21,653 bases of DNA, taken from IMG/VR virus record IMGVR_UViG_3300032268_000119, positions 1 through 21,653 of that record; one strand, written 5' to 3'. The translations under genes were made by a program, and so were the position numbers. Positions 3,191 through 17,682 of this stretch are shown here, piece after piece. The notes under the pieces were generated by a model, which was not told the origin of the DNA, ran no database searches, and saw nothing but the letters and a program-made list of their open reading frames with translations. How positions within the stretch are numbered: position 1 is the first letter of the stretch; the number at the start of each line of letters is the position of its first letter. Source of the stretch: a virus.

Positions 3191-4846
3191 ATGTTTGCTT
3201 ATTCAAAGATTATGCAAGCGTTGGCTGTTGGTGGTGGCTCTGTTACCGTCATTCAGCGTTTCCTTGCGTCTGGTACGTGGACTTGTCCTACTGGTGTTAC
3301 TACCGTTGATTACCTTGTCGTTGCTGGTGGTGGCGGTGGTGGTAATGGCGCTGGTGGTGGCGGTGGTGCTGGTGGTTTCCGTACTGGTACTGGTTTTTCT
3401 GTCACGGCTGGTACTGATTACACAATTACAGTAGGCGGTGGTGGGAATGGAAATTCAGGGACAAACCAAGACGCTTCAAACCCCGGAACAGCAGGTTCTA
3501 ATTCTGTATTTTCATCAATTACGTCCGCTGGCGGTGGTTATGGTTCTGGTGGCTTTGTTTCTCCAAACGTAGGTCAAGTTGGTGGTGCTGGAGGTTCGGG
3601 CGGTGGCGCAAGCGGAAGAAATGCACAATCAGGTGGAGCAGGAAATACACCAAGCACCACGCCATCGCAAGGTAGTTCTGGAGGCGCATCATTATCAGGA
3701 AATACTGATAATACTGGTGCTGGTGGTGGCGGTGGTGGCGCAAGTGCAGTAGGAACAACTGGTGTAAGTGGTGGTGCTGCTGGTGGTGCAGGAACAGCCT
3801 CATCTATTAGTGGTAGCTCAGTAACCTACGCTGGAGGTGGTGGAGGCGCAGTTTGGGGTGCAACTCCGGGAGGTAGCGCGTCTGGCGGTTCAGGTGGTGG
3901 TGGAGCTGGCGGGGTATATTCACCAGCTAGTAGTGGAGTTGCTGGCACTGCAAATAGAGGTGGCGGTGGTGGTGGTGGACCCGGAGGAACAACAGGAGGT
4001 AATTCTGCTGCTGGCGGCTCTGGCATAGTCATTCTTTCTTATTCCGTAGCATCACAAACAGTCTTTACATTTAAATCATCTACTACATGGGTATGCCCTA
4101 CAGGTGTGACTAGTGTTGATTATTTAGTCGTGGCTGGTGGTGGCGGTGGTGGCGGTGATGCAAATACTACCGGCGGTGGTGCTGGTGGTGCAGGAGGTTT
4201 TAGGACTGGAACATCATTTTCAGTTACGGCGGGAACTGAATACACTATTACAGTAGGAGCTGGTGGTACTGCGGTTACTGCCGGTACTGCTGCAAATGGT
4301 GGCTCTGGTGGAAATTCTACTTTTTCTACTATTACATCAAACGGCGGCGGTGGTGGCGGTGGTGCAGGACCAACGACTGCTGGACTGAACGGTGGTTCCG
4401 GTGGTGGTGGAAAACAAGACGGTGCTGGCGGTTCTGGCAACACTCCTTCTACTACGCCAAGTCAGGGTAGTAATGGTGGTGGAAGTAATGGTGGTGCTCC
4501 CGGTGCTGGAGGTGGTGGAGGCGGTGGAGCGTCTGCTACTGGTGGGGCAGGAACTTCAACGAATGGCGGTAATGGTGGTGATGGAACAGCATCCTCAATT
4601 ACCGGTTCTTCAGTAACGTATGCTGGTGGTGGTGGTGGTGGTGCTTCTTCTGGTGCTACTGCGGCTGGCTCTGGTGGTTCAGGCGGTGGTGGTGCAGGTT
4701 CAAAAGTTCTTGCTACTGCTGGTGGCAATGGAACCGCAAATACAGGCGGCGGTGGCGGTGGTGCTGGAGGTGGAGCGTATGCTTCATCAGCGGGTGGTGC
4801 TAGTGGTGCTGGCGGCTCAGGCGTAGTAATTATCAAAATCAACTAA
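3191..4846 (+). CDS. Glycine-rich adhesin with two tandem Gly-rich domains
   Basis: A 551-residue protein; the ATG at 3191 is chosen because it follows AAGGG, while an upstream in-frame start at 3134 would overlap the previous gene. The protein consists of two tandem copies of about 260 residues. Each opens with a W-x-CPTGVT-x-VDYLVVAGGGGGG motif, followed by AGGFRTGT-x-FSVTAGT-x-YTITVG. Long polyglycine runs come next, and each copy closes with GGSG(I/V)VI and a final strand. This fits the phage glycine-rich domain family (Pfam Gly_rich_2). Polyglycine runs can pack as polyglycine-II helices, as known for the gp38 tip adhesin of phage S16. A receptor-binding role at the fibre tip is therefore likely. 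Proline-rich reading frames on the opposite strand are by-products of the GGT/GGC codons. Confidence 0.82.
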   Translation: MFAYSKIMQALAVGGGSVTVIQRFLASGTWTCPTGVTTVDYLVVAGGGGGGNGAGGGGGAGGFRTGTGFSVTAGTDYTITVGGGGNGNSGTNQDASNPGTAGSNSVFSSITSAGGGYGSGGFVSPNVGQVGGAGGSGGGASGRNAQSGGAGNTPSTTPSQGSSGGASLSGNTDNTGAGGGGGGASAVGTTGVSGGAAGGAGTASSISGSSVTYAGGGGGAVWGATPGGSASGGSGGGGAGGVYSPASSGVAGTANRGGGGGGGPGGTTGGNSAAGGSGIVILSYSVASQTVFTFKSSTTWVCPTGVTSVDYLVVAGGGGGGGDANTTGGGAGGAGGFRTGTSFSVTAGTEYTITVGAGGTAVTAGTAANGGSGGNSTFSTITSNGGGGGGGAGPTTAGLNGGSGGGGKQDGAGGSGNTPSTTPSQGSNGGGSNGGAPGAGGGGGGGASATGGAGTSTNGGNGGDGTASSITGSSVTYAGGGGGGASSGATAAGSGGSGGGGAGSKVLATAGGNGTANTGGGGGGAGGGAYASSAGGASGAGGSGVVIIKIN

Positions 4847-4851
4847 GGTCT

Positions 4852-5106
4852 ATGGAAACTAAACTCTACAGAATGTACGGTATCGATGTAGCTATGTCAT
4901 TGCTGCGTCCTAATGCTAAGTGGGAAATCTCTAACACTACATTTACACGTTGGGATGATCCTAGACCATGCCCTAGTTGGGAAGAAGTGCAATGGGTAAT
5001 GGATAAGATACGTGAGTTTGAGGATAGTATTCCTACAATATGGCTTGATGAAGATTTAAAGAAGATGAAAGTTGATGCTGAAGAATTTGAGAAGGCTGTA
5101 GCGTGA
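4852..5106 (+). CDS. Small phage protein, XkdW-like in flavour
   Basis: An 84-residue acidic protein of unknown function. The middle part RPNAKWEISNTTFTRWDD, followed by PRPCPSWEEVQWVMDKI, resembles short phage proteins in which a tail-region residue pattern (RPNA-x-W ... PT/CPSWEE) precedes a helix. The C-terminal half is helical and charged. ATG follows TAAGG, in which the stop codon of the adhesin gene supplies the first bases of the ribosome site. The last four bases (GTGA) overlap the GTG start of the oxygenase gene, so the two are probably translated together. No membrane segment or catalytic motif is visible. Confidence 0.72.
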   Translation: METKLYRMYGIDVAMSLLRPNAKWEISNTTFTRWDDPRPCPSWEEVQWVMDKIREFEDSIPTIWLDEDLKKMKVDAEEFEKAVA

Positions 5107-5711
5107 ATATAAATAACTTATTCCCTACTCCGGTTGCTTTCTTTAAGTTTGGTCGTGATCTGACTGAAGCTGAACTAGAGTTTATTAAAGGTCAGGAGCA
5201 TTACGCTAACGAAGGTAATACGACTAGCAAAGATCGAAAGATTCTAAAGAATAAAGAACTAACTGAGATGCGTGAGTTTATTGAAGATTCGATGATGGAA
5301 TACTTCAAAGCTATTCATGCTCCGAAGTTCGATGTGAGTCTGTATTTAACTCAGAGTTGGGCTAACTATACGGAAGCTGGGCAGTATCACCATAAACACG
5401 CACATCCTAATAGCGTGGTGTCTGGTGTGTTTTATCCACAAGCTGATAGAACAGTAGATAAGATTTACTTTTACAAGGATGGTTACGAGCGGATTAAAGT
5501 TCCTGCTGCTGAATACAATCCTTATAACTCTGAATCGTGGTGGTTTGAGGTTGGTGCTGGTGATTTGATTCTATTCCCATCACACTTGACACACATGGTT
5601 GAGACTAAAGTAGGTGATGAAACTAGGATTAGCATAGCGTTTAATACGTTTCTAAAAGGTTACATAGGCTCAGATGAAAGTCTGACAGGTTTGCATTTAG
5701 GGGAAGAATAA
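5103..5711 (+). CDS. Putative 2OG-Fe(II) oxygenase
   Basis: A 202-residue protein with a GTG start overlapping the previous stop (GTGA). It belongs to the putative 2-oxoglutarate/Fe(II)-dependent oxygenase group that phages carry near tail genes (the TIGR02466 / 2OG-FeII_Oxy_5 type, from memory). Key stretches are NLFPTPVAFFKF at the start and QSWANYTEAGQYHHKHAHPN with SVVSGVFY around residues 85-111. Histidines at 96, 97, 99 and 101 supply the first iron ligands. DLILFPSHLTHMVE at 154-167 provides the distal histidine (H161 or H164), and R175 in ETRISIAFN fits the 2-oxoglutarate anchor. Such enzymes hydroxylate proteins, nucleic acids or small molecules; the substrate here is unknown. A virion tail or fibre protein is a reasonable guess from context. 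Confidence 0.82.
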   Translation: MNINNLFPTPVAFFKFGRDLTEAELEFIKGQEHYANEGNTTSKDRKILKNKELTEMREFIEDSMMEYFKAIHAPKFDVSLYLTQSWANYTEAGQYHHKHAHPNSVVSGVFYPQADRTVDKIYFYKDGYERIKVPAAEYNPYNSESWWFEVGAGDLILFPSHLTHMVETKVGDETRISIAFNTFLKGYIGSDESLTGLHLGEE

Positions 5712-16123: not shown

Positions 16124-16248
16124 TTGCACTCCCTGTAATGGGCGTAATGTATATGGACATGAATAACGCGACTATTGTAGCCAATGAAGAAATACGCAAG
16201 ATGAAAGAATTACGCTTAAAACTGTTAACTGAAATGCAAGGACAATAA
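15955..16248 (+). CDS. Small membrane protein overlapping the previous gene out of frame
   Basis: A 97-residue protein whose first 169 bases overlap the end of the preceding gene in another frame. A shorter form could start at 16039 (MANDTPENEP). The N-terminus is basic (TGKYKKKNRG), and one strong membrane span runs from about 42 to 65 (FTLLLTILVLCIVLVIALPV). A charged helix follows (NEEIRKMKELRLKLLTEMQG). The positive N-terminus suggests N-in, C-out topology, so the terminal helix would lie in the periplasm. The start at 15955 is preceded by AGGCGGCGGT. The stop overlaps the holin-like gene (TAATG). Function unknown; the N-in/C-out layout is loosely like an inner spanin, but the helix is short and no partner lipoprotein is seen nearby. 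Confidence 0.7.
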   Translation: MATGKYKKKNRGADDINNRGSVHNIVVPMANDTPENEPHIPFTLLLTILVLCIVLVIALPVMGVMYMDMNNATIVANEEIRKMKELRLKLLTEMQGQ

Positions 16249-16730
16249 TGCTTACCTTACTCTCTACATTTATGTCGTTCTTATCGGGTGGACTTCCTAG
16301 TTTGCTTAATTTCTTTCAGGATAAGTCTGATAAGAAGCATGAACTAGCGATGGCTCAGGTTCAGATGCAGATGCAGCTAGAGATGCAGAAAGCTGGCTTT
16401 CAGGCTCAGGAACGCGTTGAGGAAATCCACACAGAGCAGATACAGATACAAACAGCATCAGACGAGCGTAAAGCACTCTACAACCACGATATAGAGATCG
16501 GCAAAGGTGCAAGCCAATGGGTAATCAATGCTCGCGCTATGGTGCGTCCTACGGTCACCTACGGTCTATTCTTCCTGCTAGTGGCTATCGATATAGCTGG
16601 TGTCTGGTATGCATGGACTCAGAACGTGCCATTTAAGTTAATGATTGACGAGGTATGGGATTCTGATACTCAGTTGATATGGGCATCTGTTATAGCGTTT
16701 CATTTCGGTACAAGGGCATTTGCAAAATGA
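16248..16730 (+). CDS. Holin-like membrane protein
   Basis: A 160-residue protein. A hydrophobic N-terminal helix (about 2-22, TLLSTFMSFLSGGLPSLLNF) is followed by a methionine- and glutamine-rich charged coiled coil at about 28-72 (AQVQMQMQLEMQKAGFQAQE). Membrane-like segments follow at about 102-122 (TYGLFFLLVAIDIAGVWYAW) and 140-156 (TQLIWASVIAFHFGT). The order of one short and two longer hydrophobic segments, directly upstream of the endonuclease and lysozyme genes, fits a holin that permeabilises the inner membrane, as in the three-span GTA-type holins. Sequence likeness is modest, so the function rests largely on topology and position. AAGGA precedes the start. The stop overlaps the endonuclease start (ATGA). 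Confidence 0.65.
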   Translation: MLTLLSTFMSFLSGGLPSLLNFFQDKSDKKHELAMAQVQMQMQLEMQKAGFQAQERVEEIHTEQIQIQTASDERKALYNHDIEIGKGASQWVINARAMVRPTVTYGLFFLLVAIDIAGVWYAWTQNVPFKLMIDEVWDSDTQLIWASVIAFHFGTRAFAK

Positions 16731-17209
16731 GCATAGGTGTCTACGCTGTAATTAATAAGGCTGAAAACAAAATGTACATTGGTAGCAGTTCCAATGTAGA
16801 GAGGCGGCTTGTTTATCAAAAGTCGCACTTAAAGTGTGGTCATCAAACAATGATTGCTGGTCTTAAAGGTAAAAGCATAAACATTGATGACTTTGATTTT
16901 CAAATAATTGCTAAAACAGAATTAATTGAAGATGCAAGGAATTTTGAAACGCTGCTTCTTAAAACTTTATGGAATGATGGAGTTTTATACAACTTAGCTC
17001 CTCACGCTGACGGTGCTAGTGGAGTTAAACGAGATAAAGCTAAATATAAGCTAGGTGCTGCAAAGAGAAACAGCGATCCAGATTATTCAAATAAATTAAG
17101 TGCTGCATGTAAAGGTAAGAGAAAAATAGTTGTTTGCCCACATTGTCAGAAATCTGGCGGCGGTGGAAATATGATGCGGTATCATTTTGATAATTGCAAA
17201 ACAAAATGA
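16727..17209 (+). CDS. Free-standing GIY-YIG homing endonuclease
   Basis: A 160-residue protein; the ATG at 16727 overlaps the holin-like stop (ATGA) and has AAGGGC upstream. The GIY-YIG nuclease domain is seen as GVY at residues 4-6 and YIG at 17-19. These are followed by S-x-x-x-V-x-RR and a later glutamate (E74 in NFETLLLKTLW) and N89, the expected catalytic positions. The C-terminus ends in a zinc-finger-like segment, C137-x2-C140 ... H153 ... C157 with GGGGNMMRYHFDNC, common in phage homing endonucleases. It should cut a target in related phage genomes lacking the gene and so spread itself. It sits between the lysis genes as a separate gene, not in an intron, and both neighbours appear intact. 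Its frame ends in ATGA with the lysozyme start. Confidence 0.88.
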   Translation: MSIGVYAVINKAENKMYIGSSSNVERRLVYQKSHLKCGHQTMIAGLKGKSINIDDFDFQIIAKTELIEDARNFETLLLKTLWNDGVLYNLAPHADGASGVKRDKAKYKLGAAKRNSDPDYSNKLSAACKGKRKIVVCPHCQKSGGGGNMMRYHFDNCKTK

Positions 17210-17682
17210 AGGTAAGCGATAATGCACTTAAAGCCATAATGCACCACGAGGGGGTAAGGCTTAAACCTTACCGATGCCCTGCTCGACTCTGGACGATCGG
17301 CGTTGGACATGTAATCGAAGCGAGCCATGCAAAGGTTCCATTTGAGGAGCGCAGTTATCTGGAAATACCGGATGGCTGGAACCGTAAATTATCAATGGAT
17401 GAGGTTAATGCAATTCTTGCGGCTGATTTGCAGCGTTTTGAACGAGGTGTATTACGTTATTGCCCTCGTGGGATTACTCAAGGGCGGTTTGACGCTCTGG
17501 TCTCTTTTGCATTTAACGTAGGACTAGGAACACTACAAAGGTCAACTCTACGTCAGAAACATAATCGTGGTGACTATGATGGTGCTGCTGATGAGTTCTT
17601 AAAATATTGTTTAGCAGGCGGTAAGGTTCTTAAAGGACTCCTTAATAGGCGAAAAGATGAACGTGCTATATATTTAATGTAA
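17206..17682 (+). CDS. Endolysin, GH24 (T4-type) lysozyme
   Basis: A 158-residue muramidase, expected to cut the glycan chain of peptidoglycan at the end of infection. The catalytic region is HHEGVRLKPYRCPARLWTIG, then VGHV. It gives E15, C24 and T30 in the E-8-(D/C)-5-T spacing of GH24 lysozymes, with cysteine in the position of the T4 aspartate, a common phage variant. The motifs ITQGRFDALVSFAFNVGLGT and the ending GLLNRRKDERAIYLM are also typical. The protein has the usual length and no signal peptide or anchor, so it would need the holin to leave the cytoplasm. The start overlaps the endonuclease stop (ATGA) and lacks an upstream ribosome site of its own, suggesting coupling to the endonuclease. 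Confidence 0.93.
   Translation: MKVSDNALKAIMHHEGVRLKPYRCPARLWTIGVGHVIEASHAKVPFEERSYLEIPDGWNRKLSMDEVNAILAADLQRFERGVLRYCPRGITQGRFDALVSFAFNVGLGTLQRSTLRQKHNRGDYDGAADEFLKYCLAGGKVLKGLLNRRKDERAIYLM

Follow-up and report, generated by a model that had tools for sequence, protein, structure and literature searches.

The window, a 21,653-base IMG/VR virus record, carries at 16248-17682 a putative holin gene, a GIY-YIG gene and a lysozyme gene, which were recognized as open reading frames in the sequence, lie in a co-directional neighbourhood and adjoin one another through 4-nt ATGA overlaps. The putative holin gene (16248..16730, + strand, an ORF of 160 aa matching phrog_6637) provides with its 3' end the left flank of the insertion. 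It is followed by a free-standing GIY-YIG homing-type endonuclease gene (16727..17209, + strand, 160 aa) and by a phage lysozyme gene of the GH24 type (17206..17682, + strand, 158 aa). In the left overlap (16727..16730, + strand) the endonuclease ATG at 16727 lies over the holin TGA at 16728-16730, and in the right overlap (17206..17209, + strand) the lysozyme ATG at 17206 lies over the endonuclease TGA at 17207-17209. The first-pass annotation had described a GIY-YIG gene overlapping both neighbours, and its coordinates and junction sequences proved to be correct. A start codon further upstream, ATG 16679, was considered and rejected, because homologues begin at the overlap. The window contains no Rfam match and no tRNA, which rules against an intron or a structured RNA, and the overlap of the endonuclease ORF with both of its neighbours leaves no room for an intron. 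With its neighbours intact, the gene is thus encoded neither in an intron nor in an intein. RNA folds predicted at the two junctions are no stronger than those of shuffled sequences (z -0.93 and 0.11).

The endonuclease matches PF01541 (GIY-YIG) with an E value of 2.5e-8, exceeding the gathering score, and the same domain was found in 35 of 35 relatives scanned. It also matches phrog_314 (homing endonuclease; E 3.6e-12), and the best PDB match to its AlphaFold model is the I-TevI catalytic domain, 1mk0 (Foldseek E = 5.7e-4, probability 1.00). Residues Y6, Y17, R27, E74 and N89 are invariant in the alignment of 35 relatives and, judged by alignment and residue pattern, probably correspond to the catalytic residues of I-TevI. 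Profile, predicted fold and catalytic residues all place the protein in the GIY-YIG superfamily; the earlier assignment as a homing-type endonuclease is supported by the PF01541 match, by the I-TevI fold and by the existence of gene-free relatives. The C-terminal module (residues 137-158, encoded at 17135..17200 on the + strand) follows the pattern CPHCxxxGGGGNMxRYHFDxCK, in which C137, C140 and H153 are invariant and C157 is near-invariant across the same 35 relatives. We infer that this zinc-finger-like module is the DNA-binding part of the protein. As judged from dN/dS values of 0.05-0.28 for close pairs, selection on the endonuclease family is purifying.

The downstream gene is identified by its lysozyme domain (PF00959, E = 5.4e-37). 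The upstream gene is a holin only putatively. Its position, its conservation and its hydrophobic stretches near residues 1-22 and 95-125 favour the previous description as holin-like, but the only profile matched is phrog_6637 (E 8e-21), to which no function is assigned, and no Pfam holin match was obtained for any of 16 diverse members of the family. This phrog_6637 family adjoins lysozyme in well over 100 loci, yet it is matched by no curated holin model. Pairing of the lysozyme start region with the anti-Shine-Dalgarno sequence amounts to 0 kcal/mol, a value seen in only 2 of the 28 scored genes of the window (gene median -4.65 kcal/mol; random positions -1.5), bearing out the suggestion that lysozyme has no ribosome site of its own. 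The endonuclease start is preceded by a weak Shine-Dalgarno-like AAGGG (-4.2 kcal/mol). The endonuclease-lysozyme pair therefore combines the two features by which translational coupling is recognized, a stop/start overlap and a second gene without its own ribosome site. With overlaps at both ends of the endonuclease gene and no ribosome site for lysozyme, the most likely route to lysozyme is now termination-reinitiation through the endonuclease, and no longer directly from the holin gene.

A profile search carried out with the endonuclease alone returned 70 near-full-length homologues, 64 of which are located between a holin-like gene and a lysozyme gene, five of which have a neighbour cut by the contig end and one of which (L230) lies elsewhere; since this search was seeded from holin-lysozyme junction sequences, the constancy of site covers only the nearest relatives. 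More remote carriers of the zinc finger are located at other loci. An extra copy at the holin-lysozyme junction was found in a metagenome-assembled proteobacterial bin (L241). Identity to the window endonuclease ranges from 27 to 70% among 35 aligned relatives. The start/stop overlap with the upstream holin-like gene is kept in nearly all family members, and of the 68 related loci that were scored, 67 have a lysozyme start overlapped by the endonuclease, by 4-26 nt (4 nt in 49 loci and 11-26 nt in 18, with one exception), so the overlaps are not a matter of chance. This family-wide double overlap agrees with the proposed coupling-type placement at both ends and is what would be expected if coupling must be kept.

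The same retention of both overlaps could be seen as a sign of domestication within the lysis cassette, whereby the length of the gene and a double reinitiation would set the level of lysozyme and hence the time of lysis. Lysozyme starts behind family endonucleases are nearly devoid of Shine-Dalgarno sites (median -0.1 kcal/mol), which is in line with such a role, as are purifying selection on the endonuclease and the fact that whole holin clades found so far consist of carriers. We nevertheless regard domestication as unlikely. The fully endonuclease-bearing clades are a biased sample, because they were found through the endonuclease; in a protein search with the holin-like query, which is free of this bias and returned 80 loci, about 8 of the 80 carry the gene. 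Identical holin proteins are seen with and without the endonuclease, unrelated inserts occupy the holin-lysozyme junction as well, and a role as spacer requires no conservation of the active site.

Close relatives of the window phage that lack the gene comprise 27 loci with holin protein identity of 93-98%. Their junctions read ...TTTGGCAAAAAATGAAGGTAAG, ...TTTAGCAAAAAATGAAGGTAAG or close variants, meaning that the holin stop overlaps the lysozyme start directly; the direct ATGA junction predicted for gene-free relatives was thus found, by locus alignment, in 27 of them. When holin genes were aligned from the start codon and compared with these 27 relatives, the window gene displayed 8 private bases, 7 of which fall within 16701-16724, at positions where 27 of 27 gene-free relatives agree; the window also lacks one Lys codon. 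The probability of such clustering by chance is about 6e-9, assuming independent sites. At the protein level, the holin C-terminus FWFGTQAF[GS]KK (FWFGTQAFGKK) of gene-free relatives is changed to FHFGTRAFAK in the window.

These private bases mark a tract (16701..16726, + strand) over which the 3' end of the holin gene was replaced in a co-conversion-like manner. The tract is donor-like: four of the five loci with the best likeness to the tract over 27 nt are endonuclease-bearing (L214-L217, 81%), and the remainder of the holin gene in these four is just 65-67% identical to that of the window. The fifth is the gene-free L043, which has the protein sequence of the tract. Replacement also turned ACTCAGG into ACAAGGG, a slightly better Shine-Dalgarno sequence for the endonuclease. 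At the right joint, identity of the window to the gene-free loci L002 and L021 extends over 44 nt to the right, starting with the lysozyme ATG, but over only 3 nt to the left. The left flank, then, carries a short donor tract and none is detectable on the right. The earlier description of a clean insertion is incorrect for the left side: there, replacement extends over the final ~27 nt of the holin gene. Together, the pattern of the left tract and the exact match on the right indicate import of a block about 505 bp long. The actual donor is not in hand, as the nearest endonuclease is only 70% identical. Two marks of homing were found here, namely presence or absence of the gene at one site in close relatives and co-conversion of flanking sequence, on the left only. 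By these sequence comparisons, entry of the endonuclease into the window phage appears to be recent and to have brought along a short piece of donor DNA.

Similarity between the two ends of the gene had been taken as a trace of an ancestral junction duplicated on insertion, an idea that the relatives do not support. GCAAAA on the left belongs to the holin end that was imported, whereas TGCAAA on the right consists of the conserved Cys-Lys codons with which the zinc finger closes in almost all members of the family. The sequence of gene-free alleles is GGCAAAAAATGA or AGCAAAAAATGA, which speaks against duplicated ends. The right end does without ATGA in L070 and L135, where lysozyme starts with ATGC, which shows that ATGA is no fixed duplication of a target. 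We rejected a target-site duplication because the similar ends arose separately.

On a tree of 138 holin entries, there are at least 16 switches between carrying and lacking the endonuclease, 8 of which are forced by well-supported branches. Endonuclease and holin distances are correlated (Mantel r 0.51, 0/999 permutations), indicating that much history is shared or that transfer is local. This correlation is what could be cited in favour of an ancestral gene at the junction that was lost many times without any recent invasion. We disfavour this scenario as highly improbable, because the window is the only carrier in a clade otherwise made up of close relatives without the gene, because its joint contains a foreign tract, and because there are clear discordances, for example L188 and L203, whose endonucleases are 65% and holins 38% identical. 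In four other pairs (L210/L227, L172/L233, L190/L221 and L058/L226) 88-93% of the C-terminal module is common, in contrast to 29-34% of the nuclease domain; judged by these sequences, different catalytic heads seem to have been joined to the constant zinc-finger tail on several occasions. One locus (L234:3280-5556) has two tandem GIY-YIG genes (3280-4035 and 4413-5132) in a single holin-lysozyme junction, and its lysozyme gene, at 5068, overlaps the second of them.

The lysozyme 5' end (17206-17340) is mosaic even among gene-free phages with near-identical holin genes, which makes the junction a recombination boundary. Apparent right-side tracts in L053 and L070, compared with their gene-free sisters, were discarded for this reason. 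Nuclease genes at exchange boundaries have also been described (PMC10448857). Mosaic lysozyme ends would suit an explanation in which the junction gains genes by ordinary recombination and the endonuclease is a passenger that is no longer homing, and so would the inserts without a nuclease (73 to 723 nt) that this junction also accommodates and the presence of the tract's protein sequence in a gene-free phage. We find this improbable: the endonuclease-only search places the family almost exclusively at the holin-lysozyme junction, and the active site is kept under purifying selection, as expected if cutting of the junction maintains the gene.

The sequence evidence is probably best explained by the recent entry of a free-standing GIY-YIG homing endonuclease dedicated to this junction, with coupling preserved. 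During a mixed infection, the donor enzyme, held by its C-terminal zinc-finger module, would bind at or near the stop/start junction, and its nuclease head would cleave the allele lacking the gene, close to the 3' end of holin; cleavage, its position and homing itself are what we infer from the pattern at the joints. Repair would then copy the gene together with about 26 bp of donor holin sequence, placing the right joint at the lysozyme ATG. Copies extending from the holin stop to over the lysozyme start would disturb lysis least, because the operon appears to be coupled and offers no ribosome site for lysozyme. The preferred reading of the overlaps is that they let a parasite sit in a coupled operon without breaking it. 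Counter-points to this explanation are the tract protein in gene-free L043, the identity of only 70% to the nearest endonuclease, the seeding of the endonuclease search from the junction and the putative status of the holin.

Several known systems resemble parts of this arrangement. The window endonuclease shares with I-TevI the GIY-YIG nuclease fold, the pattern of catalytic residues and a beads-on-a-string layout with a zinc finger; unlike I-TevI, its gene lies outside an intron, its zinc finger is C-terminal and no helix-turn-helix was seen in it. I-TevI is reported to have its cleavage positions 23 and 25 nt upstream from the insertion and to cause one-sided co-conversion (PMC2988022), and the one-sided tract in the window extends about as far from the insertion. 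By analogy, the geometry of the left tract may fit a close cut of the I-TevI kind. The free-standing enzymes known from T4 cleave at distances of hundreds or thousands of bp (PMC2988022), so the cut may have fallen elsewhere than at the short left tract. As a free-standing GIY-YIG gene between conserved phage genes, the window gene is similar to the T4 seg endonucleases and to SegD of Vibrio phage nt-1. The latter aligns with the window endonuclease over its whole length at 29% identity and is the only full-length family member found in an isolated phage. These genes occupy different loci, and the cuts reported for seg-type enzymes are distant (PMC2988022), whereas the tract in the window is within 27 bp.

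The placement of the gene had been called unusual, a view that holds in part. Among T4 free-standing endonucleases, mobE, segC and segF overlap neighbouring genes, and the start of mobE overlaps the nrdA stop, for which translational coupling was proposed (PMC2988022). The start of the window endonuclease overlaps an upstream stop in the same way; mobE, in contrast, is an HNH gene at the nrdA/nrdB locus, and its overlap is described upstream only. In Hafnia phage Ca, an HNH gene overlaps both lysin and terminase, and gene-free genomes coexist with it (PMC8861465). Here, too, both neighbours are overlapped and one of them is a lysin gene, but the nuclease is of the HNH type, it is located between lysin and the terminase large subunit, and it represents a single phage and not a family-wide site. 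In a literature survey that covered few subscription journals, no description turned up of a GIY-YIG family restricted to the holin-lysozyme junction in divergent uncultured phages. Thus, overlapping homing endonucleases are known, while a dedicated lysis-junction family appears undescribed. The zinc-finger module has a DNA-level counterpart in VR7ORF236w, a MobE-like HNH protein of Escherichia phage VR7 with the pattern CPHCxKxGxxxNMxRYHFDNCK and about 80% DNA identity over 72 nt; it has an HNH head and another locus, and the module alone is common to both. Adjacency of the T4-like DNA match to pseT was dismissed as irrelevant: pseT lies on the opposite strand, and the match comprises only the zinc-finger module.

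More tentatively, and with a low probability in our estimate, the family might be a junction-specialised lineage that cuts close to its insertion, whose translation gates lysozyme so that gain or loss of the gene shifts lysis time, and whose heads swap over a fixed tail. Gene-free, single and double endonuclease alleles form a natural series at one coupled junction. This series allows tests of how a selfish gene survives in a timing-critical operon, of whether lysis changes and of how heads are exchanged with the target kept.

Non-nuclease inserts of 628-723 nt occur at the same junction in L108, L121, L130, L145-L147 and L149 and in L134 and L138-L140; in several of them the encoded protein contains VRPELLFVGQVHGKKVSLPPQIKAATEKYG or a close variant. 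A 73-nt insert, present in L062, L064, L065, L068, L075-L077, L079 and L080, holds a very short ORF that overlaps both neighbours. In L034 (5483-5650), the junction contains an ORF of about 160 nt that begins MIRLLLLVSVLGCADKRADC; at a guess from its sequence, the product may be a lipoprotein, for instance an outer spanin.
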